A DNA stretch of 64,000 bases from Rhodococcoides fascians A25f (GTDB lineage Bacteria > Actinomycetota > Actinomycetes > Mycobacteriales > Mycobacteriaceae), in assembly GCF_000760935.2 (NCBI RefSeq), contig NZ_CP049744.1, forward strand, positions 2,407,001 through 2,471,000. The letters are read 5' to 3'. Position 1 is the first letter of the stretch. Each line of letters starts with the position of its first letter. The notes beneath the pieces were generated by a model, which worked only from the letters and a program-made list of their open reading frames with translations, did not search any database and was not told the DNA's origin. The translations under genes and the position numbers were made by a program. Of this stretch, positions 18,472 to 23,851 are shown piece by piece.

Positions 18472-18558
18472 CCTGCGGAATTGTAGTTAGAGATCAGACA
18501 CGATAAATTTCTCCAAGCGTTCCGGTGGCCCGGGGTTGTCCCCAGGCCACCGGTACTC

Positions 18559-18633
18559 GGGCGTATAGCTCAGCGGTAGAGCTCTGGTTTTACACACCAG
18601 CGGTCGGGGGTTCGAACCCCTCTGCGCCCACCA
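18559..18633 (+). tRNA. tRNA-Val (UAC anticodon)
   Basis: A full cloverleaf is visible. The acceptor is GGGCGTA/TGCGCCC followed by ACCA, so CCA is encoded. The D-arm is GCTCAGCGGTAGAGC. The anticodon stem is CTGGT/ACCAG with loop TTTACAC, and the T-arm is GGGGG-TTCGAAC-CCCTC with one mismatch. The anticodon UAC reads valine codons. Its 3' 48 bases recur at 22412-22459, marking it as an integration target. Confidence 0.95.
18586..18633. repeat. att direct repeat, tRNA copy
   Basis: This is the 48-bp sequence from the anticodon loop to the CCA end of tRNA-Val. It matches 22412-22459 except at two positions (18595 and 18605). It restores an intact tRNA after integration, as expected for the tRNA-side attachment site. 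Confidence 0.8.
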
Positions 18634-18792
18634 ATGTTTCCCCAGGTTAGAGGCTCGCGGCAGGATTAAAGCCAGTCCGGCAATCCGTGCAGTCCGCAGT
18701 GAGAATCCCTACGGTTCGTATCTGTCCGCTACCGATGTGTTCGCCCACGTTCATTCGAATGCCGCATCGAGCCGGCCTAGATCGACGCGTGG

Positions 18793-18990
18793 GTGCGCAA
18801 GATCGACACAGAGTCGAGCGGTAACCCGCACATCGCGCAGCAGATCGTCAACGGCACCGGCGAGGCAGCCGATCCGCTCATCGGCACTGTCAACACGGGC
18901 ATGAGCAAGAACGAAGTGACTACCGCGATCGGCGACGCGACCAACTGCGCGATGCGGCGAACCGAACAGGGAAGGACCAGGACGCGATAG
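18793..18990 (+). pseudogene. short remnant, possibly of a phage lysozyme-like/tape-measure protein
   Basis: A 65-codon frame opens with V-R-K-I-D-T-E-S-S-G-N-P-H-I-A-Q-Q-I-V. This recalls the start of soluble-lytic-transglycosylase domains in phage tape-measure proteins (E-S-S-G-N-P). An in-frame TAG lies just before it, and the downstream part loses the domain. It is probably a fragment left by an earlier phage or element. It could also be chance. The remaining DNA between the tRNA and the next gene shows nothing else. Confidence 0.3.
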
Positions 18991-19029
18991 CTGCAAGAGT
19001 TTGTCGGTGGTCGCAACTAGTCTGGTTTC

Positions 19030-19905
19030 GTGACCGAAATTGCCGCAGCGGACTACCGACACCCCAAGTGCTACGCCAACACTGGGGGAGGATGCTCGAC
19101 CAAGATCTCGGGCGAGCACTACATCTCTCATGGCCTGATCAAGCTCTACAGCTTCGATGATCCCAACGCGACGATCCGGCATGACAACGGCCTAGGCGTC
19201 CGGCGGTTCGTCCAGCCGAAGAAGTTCGTCGCGAATGTCCTGTGCGAGACGCACAACAACGGTTTATCGGATGCCGACAAAGCAGCTATCAAGCTTGCGA
19301 CATTCCTCCGCGCAATTGCTTTGCGCTACCGGGGCGGCGCAGGCGATTGGGGAGAAGTCGAGTCGGTCGAGATCTCCGGCGATGATTTTCAGCGGTGGGT
19401 GCTGAAATTACTCCTTACGCACGCTGCGGGGAATGCCTTCGGCTCCGACGGAGTCGCGGTCGAAAGCCCGATTATCGATGACTCTATCCATCTCCTGCTC
19501 GACCGCGCAGCATGGCCTCGGACCTGGGGACTTTACGTCGCCGCTGACACCGGTCACCAGCATCTCAAGTTCGACCCCTTCTCGCGGGTCGAGACCGTAA
19601 CCACCGACTGGTGTAACGCGTACCCAATGTTCGGCAACGAAGGCAACGCCATGCGGGGAGGACTCGTCGAGCTGGCGGGTGTTGGTTTCGGCTTGAGTTT
19701 GTTTAATCCGGGACGCCGGAACCGGCTGCATCGTGCTGTGGGACTGAGACGCCGCTTCGACGATCCGCGGAATCCTGCGCGAGGAACGGTCCAGAAGCCG
19801 AAGTACATTGCGTGGGTGCGCGACGGGGTCGAAAAGCGCATTAACTTCGCTTGGAACGACCAGCACGAGAACAAGAGCGTCACTTACACGATGAGGACGG
19901 CATGA
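19030..19905 (+). CDS. HNH-like zinc-motif protein of the island (candidate nuclease)
   Basis: The product has 291 aa. The N-terminal 90 residues carry C14-x7-C22-x6-E29-H30 and C72-x2-H75-N76-N77-x2-S-x2-D. This spacing is that of HNH-type treble-clef nucleases (C..C, E-H, C..H-N). The remaining 200 residues are not recognised and may bind a target. There is no signal peptide. The GTG start lies 6 bases after a TAGTCT box, so a leaderless mRNA is possible. The stop overlaps the start of a small membrane protein gene (ATGA), so the two are expected to act together. Nuclease activity and a defence role are inference. It could also be a non-catalytic zinc-binding protein. Confidence 0.65.
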   Translation: MTEIAAADYRHPKCYANTGGGCSTKISGEHYISHGLIKLYSFDDPNATIRHDNGLGVRRFVQPKKFVANVLCETHNNGLSDADKAAIKLATFLRAIALRYRGGAGDWGEVESVEISGDDFQRWVLKLLLTHAAGNAFGSDGVAVESPIIDDSIHLLLDRAAWPRTWGLYVAADTGHQHLKFDPFSRVETVTTDWCNAYPMFGNEGNAMRGGLVELAGVGFGLSLFNPGRRNRLHRAVGLRRRFDDPRNPARGTVQKPKYIAWVRDGVEKRINFAWNDQHENKSVTYTMRTA

Positions 19906-20381
19906 TCGACCCCGTATGGGCTGGCGTCGTGGGTACCGCGGTAGGCGCTGTTGCGGGTAGTGCAGCGTCCCTACTCGCTCCGCTAATCAACTGGCGAACC
20001 GAGAAGAAGCGCCTTGGCGTCGAGAAAGATAACGCGAAGGAGCTCGCGGATCACCAACACACACTCGACCTCTCGCGGATCCAGCGCGAGGCTGAAGCCT
20101 CCGAGCTCGAGGCGAAACGTGTATGGATCGCACAGTGGCGGGAGGGTGTCGCAGAAGCGACGACGAACTACCATGACGCGAGCCGACGGGCGAGCGTGCA
20201 CTTGAGGCCGCTTGCTGGCGTCCCCTGGTTCGAAACCCTTCGGCCGCATCTGGACGAAACCAATCTTCAGATTGCGGTCGACTTTCTTCAGCCGGTTTTC
20301 GTTGAGATCGACGAACAGAAGTCCAAGGCCTTGTCGGATGAGATCACTCGAATCGCTCGCCAATGGCACGTGTACGAGTAG
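19902..20381 (+). CDS. small membrane-anchored coiled-coil protein, coupled to the HNH-like gene
   Basis: The product has 159 aa. Residues 4-28 form one hydrophobic helix rich in G and A (V-W-A-G-V-V-G-T-A-V-G-A-V-A-G). A highly charged helix follows (about 32-95, E-K-K-R-L-G-V-E-K-D-N-A-K-E-L), likely a cytoplasmic coiled coil. The C-terminal part includes P-W-F-E-T-L-R-P-H-L. Small membrane proteins with this layout are common in mobile islands in my recollection, with no known function. The ATG overlaps the stop of the HNH-like gene. A strong terminator follows, so the two genes form a closed transcription unit. It may place the HNH protein at the membrane. Confidence 0.7.
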   Translation: MIDPVWAGVVGTAVGAVAGSAASLLAPLINWRTEKKRLGVEKDNAKELADHQHTLDLSRIQREAEASELEAKRVWIAQWREGVAEATTNYHDASRRASVHLRPLAGVPWFETLRPHLDETNLQIAVDFLQPVFVEIDEQKSKALSDEITRIARQWHVYE

Positions 20382-20387
20382 CAGAAC

Positions 20388-20425
20388 GGCCCCGCCTCAA
20401 CCGGGAGATCAAGGGCGGGGCCTTT
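20388..20425 (+). terminator. rho-independent terminator of the HNH/membrane operon
   Basis: GGCCCCGCC and GGCGGGGCC form a perfect 9-bp GC stem with a 17-base loop and are followed by TTT. It begins 7 bases after the stop of the membrane-protein gene. From here to 20600 I see no gene or clear signal. Confidence 0.75.
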
Positions 20426-20600
20426 CCACAAACATCGCGTAGCTGCAGCCCGCGGTGTTGGGATCTGTAGTGCCCGACACCCCGGGTCGACGCAAAAACT
20501 TGGAACTGTCTAAGCGCCGAACACAACCGTCGACACGCCAGAGCTTTCGCCTCCCGGCAGAATGCAACACCTCGACCCCGCTCGCAGGGGGACACTGCGA

Positions 20601-20680
20601 TTGACGCGAACGTGTCACTCGGTACGGTAGCTTCTATCTATATGTTCACCGTTGACGTGACCGGGTTCTACGCGTAACGG
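20601..20680 (+). promoter_or_regulatory. two tandem SigA-like promoters for the 409-aa gene
   Basis: TTGACG at 20601-20606 with TACGGT at 20623-20628 (16-base spacer) is one promoter. TTGACG at 20652-20657 with TAACGG at 20675-20680 (17-base spacer) is the other. Both point toward the 409-aa membrane-protein gene, which starts at 20716. They show that this gene is expressed separately from the HNH pair. Confidence 0.55.
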
Positions 20681-20715
20681 TACGCGAATTAATTGCTTGC
20701 GCTAGATAAAAGTGT

Positions 20716-21945
20716 GTGAGCGTGTTAAACATCGAAAATCCTGTATACGCTCCGCGAGAAGGCTACGATCCTATCCAAGGGTGCTCTCTCCAACAAGCTT
20801 GGGAGTTCGAAATGGCAGCTATTGCGGCGATCACGCTTGACTCAGTCCCGGGAAAAGTCGACGCGATCAAGTTGTACCAGAAGGCGACGTCTGCAGGCTG
20901 GGTCGTATTGGAAAGCTACACAGAAAATGAGGGCGGCTCAGAACCAGTTACAATCTTTTCTAAACCGTTCGACACGCAGGACGACGCTGCCTTTGGCGTG
21001 GCAATACTCGGTGACGATTTAACGGGTTATATCGTACGCGATAATAACTACGACGGCGGCATGGTCTTCCTGAATAATCCGGATCAATCAAACGACACAA
21101 TGCGAGAAATTGCTGGTCGCTTTGAGGGCAAGTTCGACTGGACCGGCCCGTCCGTAGTTGTGAAGCCGACTGCTGCGGCCGGCCCAGATCGATCTGGGCC
21201 GGTAGACGAGCAACCGAAAACGGATGTCACTGAACACGACGAGACTGACAACGCTGAACTGTTCAAACTTCTCTTCGCTGCGCTCGGGGAAGCGAAATCA
21301 GCGAAGTCTGCAGCTGACTACCTAGAAGCGATCTCTTTACCTGTTCTCGCAGCGAACACCTGGAGGTTGGCTACTGACCAGCGACTTGTCAAAGTTCTTG
21401 GAACCTCCGCTGATTCCGATCTGGCGCTAATTGCGCGGGATGTTCTGCGCGTAAGGAATGGGCTTCCAACCGCAGCTGCGGCCGATCGTGAGAAGGCAAT
21501 TTCTTTGAACGATCAGAAGCGTGCCAACTTGTCCAATGATTTTCTCAAAGAGAACGTCAAGCTTGCTAAGTCTGTTGTCGCGCAGCGCGTTCGGTGGACT
21601 GAGTTATCGAATTTCGTCCCCCCTTTCCTAGGCGTTTCGCTGATTTTTTCCGGGATTCTGTCGATCATTGCGTTCCTTTTAACAAGAGATCACCACATCG
21701 ACGGATACCAACTCCCGCTGGTGCTGTTCGTTCTTGCGCTCATTGCAGTATCGCCCTCGGTGCTTTTGCTTCTTGAGAGGCCTCTCCGGGGATTAGACCA
21801 TTGGTCGCCAGGCGGCAAAGTCGAGGACGATGCGAAAGCTGAGAAGGATGAGAAAACGGAAGATCCAGCCGCTCCCGATTCTGTATCTGAGAAAGAAGAA
21901 ACTCCAGTCACCTCGCGTTTGGAAATTAAGATCGTGAGTGATTGA
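20716..21945 (+). CDS. unrecognised 409-aa membrane protein of the island
   Basis: I do not recognise this protein. Residues 1-145 form a mixed alpha/beta domain with a lower-GC codon pattern than the chromosome (many AAT, TTT and AAA codons). Residues of about 175-290 are charged and helical. Two transmembrane helices lie at about 300-325 and 332-353 (S-L-I-F-S-G-I-L-S-I-I-A-F-L-L and V-L-F-V-L-A-L-I-A-V). The last 55 residues are acidic and lysine-rich. Large soluble domains with C-terminal membrane helices occur in effector proteins of defence systems, but nothing here proves this. The GTG start lacks a good ribosome site. It has its own tandem promoters. Confidence 0.65.
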   Translation: MSVLNIENPVYAPREGYDPIQGCSLQQAWEFEMAAIAAITLDSVPGKVDAIKLYQKATSAGWVVLESYTENEGGSEPVTIFSKPFDTQDDAAFGVAILGDDLTGYIVRDNNYDGGMVFLNNPDQSNDTMREIAGRFEGKFDWTGPSVVVKPTAAAGPDRSGPVDEQPKTDVTEHDETDNAELFKLLFAALGEAKSAKSAADYLEAISLPVLAANTWRLATDQRLVKVLGTSADSDLALIARDVLRVRNGLPTAAAADREKAISLNDQKRANLSNDFLKENVKLAKSVVAQRVRWTELSNFVPPFLGVSLIFSGILSIIAFLLTRDHHIDGYQLPLVLFVLALIAVSPSVLLLLERPLRGLDHWSPGGKVEDDAKAEKDEKTEDPAAPDSVSEKEETPVTSRLEIKIVSD

Positions 21946-22010
21946 TTGGTACTGCACCTGGCAGAGTTGAACGCAACTGAGAAAATGCGTCTTGGGGTTT
22001 CACGTACGCG

Positions 22011-22251
22011 GTGGCGAAGACCGGTGGTGCTGACGGATGTCTACATCAAGGCGTCCGGTGCCTTGGCAGGGAAACTGGAGAGGCGGAGTCGCTGTTCGGC
22101 CTAGTCTCTATCGCCTCTTCGGGGCACGCGGCGACGACATCTCGAAGGCACTTTCATCCTCGCCGCGTCATCGTTCAGAAGGCAGGTCGTCGAGTTCGCG
22201 GACTCAATACGCATTGCCTTGTTCATATACGATCCGGCGGGAGAGGTGTGA
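22011..22251 (+). pseudogene. decayed Mrr-type restriction endonuclease fragment
   Basis: Pieces of one protein appear in different frames. V-A-K-T-G-G-A-D-G runs from 22011. After a shift, V-Y-I-K-A-S-G-A-L-A-G-K-L follows at about 22039. After further damage, G-T-F-I-L-A-A-S-S-F-R-R-Q-V-V-E-F-A-D-S, then I-A-L-F-I-Y-D-P-A-G-E-V and a stop. The order fits the Mrr_cat fold, with G-x-D-G-G-x-D around the catalytic Asp and the later V-T-x-x-x-F-x-x-x-A-x-x-A part. The break lies right at the catalytic motif, and the Q-x-K strand is not recoverable. The rest of 21946-22411 shows no intact gene. Confidence 0.45.
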
Positions 22252-22411
22252 GCGGCGAACCAAGGTCGCGCGCAAGTTCCATTGAACAAACGACTGTGCG
22301 GTGAGGGCGTCAATCAAACGGATGATCTGACTGCCTTCGCTGAATCCGGTGACCTCATGCTCCTCGGCCTAGTTCAGAGGTCCGCCAACGAACTAACGGG
22401 GTCCGTGTACC

Positions 22412-22459
22412 GGTTTTACATACCAGCGGTTGGGGGTTCGAACCCCTCTGCGCCCACCA
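22412..22459. repeat. att direct repeat, distal copy of tRNA-Val 3' end
   Basis: These 48 bases repeat the tRNA-Val sequence from the anticodon loop to CCA with two C-to-T differences (22421 and 22431). The 5' half of the tRNA is absent, so this is not a functional tRNA. It ends one base before the monooxygenase stop codon and marks the right boundary of the island. Confidence 0.8.
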
Positions 22460-23851
22460 TCAAGCCGATTCTCGGCTTGACCGAACCTCCCGCACGATCT
22501 GCTGCGCCCGGTGTTCCTCGGGCAGTCGATCACCTTTGCCGAAGAGCTTGTGACGCAATGTGCCCGGCGTGTACTCGGTGCGATAGGCACCCCGCCGCTG
22601 CAATTCGGGGACGACGAATCGCACGACGTCCTCGAACGTTCCCGGGGTGATGGCATACGCGAGATTGAAGCCGTCCACGTCGGTCTCGTCCACCCACTCC
22701 TGCAATTGGTCTGCGACTTCGCCGGGGGACCCGACGATGCGCGGACCGGCACCGCCGATACCGCCCCACTCGGCGATATCGCGCACCGTCCATTCCTTAC
22801 CGTCGGCCCCGATCGACTGGAACGATGCGACGAACGACTGAATCGCATTGCTCTCGACATTGCCGAGTGGCTCGTCGAGCGCATACCGCGACAGGTCGAC
22901 GCCCATCCAGCCCGACATGAACACCAACGCACCCTCGGCACTGGCATACGACCGATACTCGTCGTGTTTGGCATGGGCGAGCTCGGATGTCTCGTCGGTG
23001 ACGATGGTGAGCAGCTGATAGATCCGCGCCGAATATGGATCACGGCCGGCATCGCGCAGCGCCCGACGAATATTCGAAACCGTCTGCGCCAGAATCTCCT
23101 TGGTGGGTGCTCCGACGAAGATCGCTTCGGCATTCTGCGCCGCGAACCGTACGCCACGCGGCGACGCGCCGGCCTGGAAGATCACCGGCGTCCGCTGCGG
23201 TGACGGCTCGGCCAGATGGATACCCGGCACCGTGAAGTGCTTGCCGCGGTGGCCGATTCGATGCACCTTGGTTGGGTCGGTGAACACACCGGTCTCGCGA
23301 TCGCGGACCACCGCGTCCTCGTCCCACGACGCCTCCCACAACTTGTAGAGCACCTCGAGGTACTCGTCGGCGTGGTCGTAACGATCGTCGTGCTTCAGCT
23401 GATCGTCGTGGCCCATGTTCTGCGCCGCCGACGGTAGATACCCGGTGACGACGTTCCACCCGATGCGGCCATTGGTCAGATGGTCGAGCGTGGAGAGCCG
23501 TCGCGCGAACGGATACGGATGCTCGAAGCCGGTACCCGCAGTGATCCCGAAGCCCAGATGCTCGGTGACCGCGGCCTGCGCGCTGACGAGCAACAGTGGG
23601 TCCGATACGGGAATTTGCGCACCGTGCCGGATGGCGGCGTCATGATTGCCGCCATACACGTCGTACGTGCCGAGGACGTCGGCGATGAACAAACCGTCGA
23701 ACAGGCCTCGTTCCAACAGCTTCGCCAGATCGGTCCAGTAGCCGAGTTCCTTGTAGCGCCACGACTGATCGAGTGGATGACGCCACAGACCGGGAGACTG
23801 ATGCGCGACGCAATTCATGTCGAAGGCATTGAAGCGAATCTCACGTGACAC
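22460..23851 (-). CDS. FMN-dependent monooxygenase, NtaA/SnaA/DszA/SoxA family
   Basis: The 463-aa bacterial luciferase-like TIM-barrel enzyme takes reduced flavin from a separate reductase to oxygenate C-S or C-N compounds. Family marks are F-N-A-F-D-M-N near the start, S-P-G-L-W-R-H-P, Y-W-x-D-L-A-K-L-L-E-R-G-x-F-D-G, G-T-Y-D-V-Y, G-W-N-V-V-T-G-Y-L-P-S-A and F-Q-A-G-A-S-P-x-G. The substrate is unknown. The gene is divergent from a MetNIQ-type transporter and near a nitroreductase, so use of an organosulfur compound as a sulfur source is plausible (inference). The stop codon directly touches the island's distal att repeat. Confidence 0.9.
   Translation of the reverse strand: MSREIRFNAFDMNCVAHQSPGLWRHPLDQSWRYKELGYWTDLAKLLERGLFDGLFIADVLGTYDVYGGNHDAAIRHGAQIPVSDPLLLVSAQAAVTEHLGFGITAGTGFEHPYPFARRLSTLDHLTNGRIGWNVVTGYLPSAAQNMGHDDQLKHDDRYDHADEYLEVLYKLWEASWDEDAVVRDRETGVFTDPTKVHRIGHRGKHFTVPGIHLAEPSPQRTPVIFQAGASPRGVRFAAQNAEAIFVGAPTKEILAQTVSNIRRALRDAGRDPYSARIYQLLTIVTDETSELAHAKHDEYRSYASAEGALVFMSGWMGVDLSRYALDEPLGNVESNAIQSFVASFQSIGADGKEWTVRDIAEWGGIGGAGPRIVGSPGEVADQLQEWVDETDVDGFNLAYAITPGTFEDVVRFVVPELQRRGAYRTEYTPGTLRHKLFGKGDRLPEEHRAQQIVREVRSSRESA

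Follow-up and report, generated by a model that had tools for sequence, protein, structure and literature searches.

A 3,826-base-pair (bp) insertion at a tRNA-Val gene of Rhodococcoides fascians A25f carries two overlapping genes, one for a nuclease-like protein of 291 amino acids (aa) and one for a 159-aa protein with a single predicted membrane helix, behind the remnant of a phage tape-measure gene's 3' end. Tentatively, we favor the explanation that the pair is prophage-borne anti-phage cargo in which the nuclease-like protein would be tethered by exchangeable membrane anchors, a mode resembling that of the membrane nuclease SNIPE; the anti-phage role, the nuclease activity and a physical interaction of the two proteins are what we infer. 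The insertion lies in a stretch of 64,000 nucleotides (nt) of contig NZ_CP049744.1 (positions 2,407,001 to 2,471,000, forward strand), here called the window, whose numbering is used throughout (Table 1). An earlier note, made from the letters of this stretch, had proposed a mobile island at the tRNA gene with a coupled HNH-like/membrane protein pair and a possible role in defense.

The insertion at tRNA-Val and its likely origin

The last 48 nt of the tRNA gene recur at the far end of the element as a direct repeat, identical at 46 of 48 positions. Across the genus, 37 of 37 genomes gave a match either to the left flank or to the end of the tRNA gene (G018 by a 43-nt end only), and 36 downstream regions were retrieved for comparison. 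Two of these, in G033 and G023, are empty sites in which the window's right flank starts no more than 8 nt from the tRNA end, and the flank in G033 is 99% identical to that of the window, without the insert. Because the right flank adjoins the tRNA end in both, 18634-22459 is a clean insertion, and the repeat that had been read as bounding a 3.8-kilobase (kb) insert at tRNA-Val is borne out. The locus is a hotspot of integration: in four further regions (G026, G008, G027 and G021) part of the tRNA end is present a second time, G026 has an integrase here (Pfam Phage_integrase), and an open reading frame (ORF) in G021 resembles that integrase by our reading. The insert itself has no integrase of its own, whereas L106, an element at this tRNA gene as well, carries one; nor does it have any ORF of at least 160 aa besides its three genes and their extended forms. 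The exact attachment 28-mer occurs in none of the viral contigs, and a search of phages with the attachment sequence gave 85 records, of which the best 20 are phage tRNA-Val genes in identity bands of 80-95%.

What kind of element was this? The answer lies in a short stretch just ahead of the 291-aa gene, unnoticed in the earlier note, which matches phage tape-measure proteins in 89 of 50,697 phage records (tblastn, E value (E) <= 0.1), 76 of them from Gordonia phages and 7 from Rhodococcus phages; the best 20 of the 89 show 39-64% identity, and 19 of these 20 are annotated as tape measure. In G010, which we take as Rhodococcus, a better-kept tape-measure remnant stands directly 5' of the HNH-like gene, its last 50 residues matching 73 phage records, and a transposase with an rve domain comes after the block. 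R. tibetensis (L005) has a decayed, weaker match in the same place (E 6e-4 to 0.05). Since a tape-measure end stands ahead of the gene in both the window and G010, and weakly so in L005, the pair is cargo behind the tape-measure gene of a siphophage-type prophage; of the phage late-gene setting that marks a moron, the upstream side is present in the window and G010, and the downstream side is lost. We read the insert as what is left of a prophage of siphophage type, or of an element derived from one, in tRNA-Val. The proposed island is thus mobile and tRNA-inserted, as claimed, with its identity corrected; a plain satellite island was considered and rejected, because the tape-measure remnant favors a prophage.

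The 291-aa protein, its membrane partner and their family

With 181 relatives, the 291-aa protein forms an unnamed family. All 28 close relatives compared have its motif residues unchanged, and the 11 diverse ones keep them too, save C14 in one. The predicted model (predicted local distance difference test, pLDDT, 92) is confident and places strands at 26-30 and 67-72 and a helix at 73-78. Between the window and G010, substitutions at codon positions 1/2/3 number 71/60/147 in the 291-aa gene and 57/36/93 in the 159-aa gene; in the third gene of the insert, which encodes a 377-aa protein, they number 161/124/250 against G022. On the strength of this third-position excess against relatives, the three genes, all intact, read as having been under protein-coding constraint since divergence.

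The start of the 159-aa ORF overlaps the stop of the 291-aa ORF by 4 nt, as the earlier note had seen. How general is the arrangement? We compared 18 family loci, comprising 12 genome contigs, three further genomes, two plasmids and the window, and looked for any ORF of 50 aa or more on the same strand with its start at -60 to +250 nt from the stop, membrane helices being assigned by hydropathy scan. Left aside were two distant genome-contig hits (L015, L016), nine other distant hits, duplicate entries for loci already included (L028-L030, L032, L033) and 14 of 16 plasmid records (among them L066 and L067); a gene-order search gave nothing new. A one-helix membrane protein directly follows the family gene in 5 of the 18 loci and is of two kinds: a short one (159 aa in the window, 167 aa in G010, with the 4-nt overlap in both) and a long one of about 257 aa (L010, L012, L013). 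The two kinds are unrelated by BLASTP against a database of the five partner proteins, the best between-kind E being 0.03, whereas comparisons inside the long kind all reached 4e-53 or lower and those inside the short kind 3e-40 or lower. The remaining 13 loci have no membrane partner within the range examined; one of them, L065, holds an interrupted copy of the 291-aa gene, and in L005 the ORFs that come next, 70 and 111 aa long, are small and hydrophobic and were not counted. Because 13 of 18 loci lack a partner, the pairing, though real and recurrent, is optional, and an obligate pair was rejected. The coupling claimed earlier therefore holds with the same partner in two loci and with an unrelated one-helix partner in three, and is not seen within the range examined in the other 13.

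The 159-aa family is smaller, with 11 relatives and matches in 16 of 401 genomes; the full-length 291-aa family is present in just two of those 16, G000 and G010, each time next to the 159-aa family, and the 159-aa protein had no match among phages or plasmids. In L019, L020 and L040, relatives of the 159-aa protein are followed or overlapped by another membrane protein, about 250 aa long, in which a 'VVVEPQ' stretch recurs; since this protein adjoins it there, the putative anchor family has other partners.

Marks of mobility accompany 13 of the 18 loci. The tape-measure remnant accounts for the window, G010 and L005 (the last weak); a tRNA together with an integrase or HTH_17 gene for L004, L010, L012, L013 and L014 (the integrase matches of L010 and L012 lie below the Pfam cut-off); an adjoining recombinase or integrase for L007, L008 and L059; and a plasmid location for L064 and L065. 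No such mark was identified in L003, L006, L009, L011 or L058, and L003 has two tRNAs about 4 kb off. Defense-type genes neighbor four loci: SIR2 in L004, a DUF4062/PDC-S60 gene (Pfam just below cut-off) in L009, McrBC and a type IIG enzyme in L058, and TIR and HEC-03B-like genes in L065. This count leaves out a Schlafen AlbA_2 protein in the vicinity of L006 and an AbiEi-like one close to L012, and the tested neighbors in L003, L005, L006 and L011 include ordinary metabolic genes.

Table 1. Features of the insertion and its tRNA-Val site, in window coordinates.
Feature	Position	Strand	Basis or remark
tRNA-Val (anticodon TAC)	18559..18633	+	3' 48 nt form the left attachment repeat
attL, left direct-repeat copy	18586..18633	+	46/48 identical to right copy
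Siphophage tape-measure gene, 3'-end remnant	18781..18987	+	tblastn to phage tape-measure proteins
291-aa nuclease-like protein, HNH-like motif (C14, C22, E29-H30, C72, H75-N76)	19030..19905	+	GTG start
159-aa protein, one N-terminal membrane helix (hydropathy), likely coiled coil (our reading)	19902..20381	+	ATG start
GC-rich hairpin after the pair, possible terminator	20384..20426	+	-24.2 kcal/mol
377-aa protein (409 aa from GTG 20716), two predicted C-terminal membrane helices	20812..21945	+	ATG 20812
Decayed small Mrr-type nuclease gene, several frames	21948..22260 (approximate limits)	+	tblastn matches
attR, right direct-repeat copy	22412..22459	+	repeat match and flank comparison

Other contents of the insert and of the site

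The third intact gene had been described as encoding a 409-aa protein with C-terminal membrane helices. The intact ORF and the predicted helices stand; the length is probably 377 aa, for the database entry (P0135) begins at ATG 20812 and the sole relative starts near there too, so that this ATG is probably the true start. That relative, at 42% identity, came from a search in which scoring was confined to the 7,992 candidates with the most words in common. Matches beyond the window were found in 2 of 351 genomes: in G022 at the same tRNA-Val site, and in G191 as a C-terminal match to a 249-aa relative in a prophage-like region. The 409-aa model, built on three sequences, is poor, with a pLDDT of 41. 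This protein is probably prophage cargo too.

The decayed Mrr-type nuclease of the earlier note is confirmed through intact counterparts: at about 22120-22248 a piece still in frame matches two small nucleases (35-40% identity, E 1e-5 and 5e-5) that themselves match Pfam Mrr_cat at 8e-11 and 7.7e-6. Pfam found no family in the five broken pieces of the insert, and the Mrr and tape-measure identities rest on tblastn. One of the two counterparts lies in G191 (L137) among genes that we read as phage structural, the same region that holds the 249-aa relative. That gene (L137:5291-5758) encodes a small Mrr_cat nuclease with, by our reading, a hydrophobic C-terminus, in an apparent prophage late region; the reading frame opposite it would encode a coiled-coil protein anchored at its N-terminus.

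The transcription signals described around the genes fared less well. The hairpin after the pair, said to be a strong terminator, has a 10-bp GC-rich stem and a poor T-run, and its energy is unexceptional against 300 mononucleotide shuffles (-18.5 +/- 3.3 kcal/mol, lowest -29.7). For the tandem promoters assigned to the third gene, a sigma-70-type scan of 18500-22520, a weak instrument in actinobacteria, gave none where 1.3 were expected.

Other elements at the same tRNA-Val gene carry different cargo. In G022 (L108) the insert holds a DUF2971 protein as well as the closest relative found for the 409-aa protein of the window, and in G003 (L104) there are several small membrane proteins of unknown family, one gene start resembling one in the prophage-like region of G191. 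In G008 (L110) an ImmA/IrrE-type helix-turn-helix protein (RmrA-like in PADLOC) adjoins a DUF4411 protein, likely a toxin-antitoxin-type or defense cassette.

Possible roles of the pair

What might such a pair do? We propose that the prophage lost its structural genes and integrase and retained accessory cargo, the pair having been a late-region moron behind the tape-measure gene. The N-terminal helix of the 159-aa protein would tether the 291-aa protein to the inner membrane face, where a zinc-stabilized C-C/C-H site and a catalytic E-H/N pair might let it cut the DNA of another phage on entry; the anchor would be replaceable by an unrelated one-helix protein. The model for this proposal is SNIPE, a membrane-bound nuclease that cuts the DNA of phages while they inject it and whose N-terminal regions for membrane targeting are diverse (PMC13190303). 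Placement of a nuclease at the inner membrane is described there and proposed here, and the diverse membrane regions of the one may correspond to the exchangeable membrane partner proteins of the other. SNIPE, in contrast, is a single polypeptide with DUF4041 and GIY-YIG, whereas the window has two genes, without Pfam matches to those domains. The broader claim, that a nuclease-like protein of unsolved fold borrows unrelated one-helix anchors on Mycobacteriales prophages, plasmids and tRNA islands and so constitutes a split, membrane-tethered nuclease immunity, is more doubtful. Among the open-access papers listed in the literature searches, and in passages of PMC13313380 and PMC13092281, no description of an HNH-like-plus-membrane pair was found.

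Several results weigh against the anti-phage reading. A fold search with the 291-aa model found no match among solved structures in the PDB, and by sequence the PDB gave one row at E 0.33 for the protein and none for its diverse alignment (A5). There is no Pfam HNH match, and the profile scored against HNH_5 (PF14279) no better than its reversed control; by our reading the two have a motif order in common (C..C, D/E-H, C..C/H-N), whereas the window protein has about 190 further residues and a predicted fold without a solved relative. Since neither a solved structure nor an HNH profile matched, HNH denotes motif resemblance only: the C-H-N pattern of the earlier note stands, within a conserved C-C, E-H and C-H-N pattern, and the HNH-like fold, whose absence from predictions it had named beforehand as refuting, found no match, though a small motif could be missed. 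PADLOC returned no family for any of the three insert proteins at E <= 1, and Pfam, PHROGs and NCBIfam returned weak rows far below cut-off. To these we add the loci without a partner, the adjacency of the window-type pair in two loci only, the unexceptional hairpin, and the defense-type neighbors themselves, which were hand-picked, without a control set. The case for defense is thus circumstantial, built on neighbors, mobility and exchangeable anchors.

The roles in the pair could also be reversed, with the membrane protein as effector, damaging the membrane or blocking entry, and the 291-aa protein as sensor or regulator, an account that we regard as unlikely. Actinophages offer precedents in three reports (PMC6426596, PMC6426606, PMC7542560): gene pairs of prophages (Sbash 30/31, CarolAnn 43/44 and Butters 30/31) defend lysogens, and Sbash 30/31 is proposed to cause loss of membrane potential. 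The window pair likewise consists of two adjacent genes in a prophage remnant, and Butters gp31 has predicted membrane domains. In the window, by contrast, a nuclease-like motif marks the soluble protein, and the two genes come behind that for the tape measure; the first two proteins of the insert found no match to these pairs in the phage collection, a search that was not a direct comparison and in which the presence of the three pairs was not confirmed. Because the soluble member is widespread and the membrane member variable or missing, an anchor fits better than an effector.

Somewhat less probable is a packaging or assembly nuclease of the phage life cycle, left behind by chance. Three of the 50,697 phage records match the 291-aa family at E 0.01, those of mycobacteriophages Mao1, Mask and Sejanus. 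Mao1 gene 3 (L063:1727-2920; 24.6% identity) keeps the motif residues and has a SEC-C motif. It is the next gene behind that for the terminase, and two further genes separate it from the portal gene; this position hints that some members of the family serve the phage, and so also counts against an anti-phage role. The window copy, for its part, comes after a tape-measure gene. The next annotated gene in Mao1 is for a DNA binding protein, whereas in the window it is for a membrane protein. The scarcity of phage matches speaks against this account, as do the viral contigs, with no relatives by the close alignment and five loci by the diverse one (A5), where a hydrophobic-helix gene directly 3' of the relative was seen only in L141 (a 182-aa ORF with two hydrophobic stretches, overlapping the relative's end). 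None of the alignments A1, A2 and A3 found a close relative in viral contigs. Relatives also occur on plasmids and at tRNA genes, and coding constraint persists.

It is improbable that the insert is passenger DNA in decay, its genes open only through recent insertion: the Mrr and tape-measure genes on either side have already been disrupted and a 99% identical flank lacks the insert, but three ORFs remain open beside those broken neighbors and show a third-position bias against relatives, though the bias may stem from earlier constraint. Least likely is an addiction pair of nuclease-like toxin and membrane antitoxin, which the start/stop overlap and the two-gene ImmA/IrrE and DUF4411 cassette at the same tRNA site in G008 might recall, but in which the 159-aa and 257-aa partners should not be unrelated and from which 13 of 18 loci depart, so that a partner is seemingly unneeded to survive the 291-aa protein.

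Returning to the tethered nuclease that we favor, the subject is an unnamed family with a confidently predicted fold that matches no solved structure and an active-site-like motif, carried by prophages and plasmids as well as by islands in Mycobacteriales. If its members are indeed tethered nucleases with swappable anchors, the cutting of phage DNA at entry would have arisen more than once, and the pair would add a defense module relevant to actinophages.

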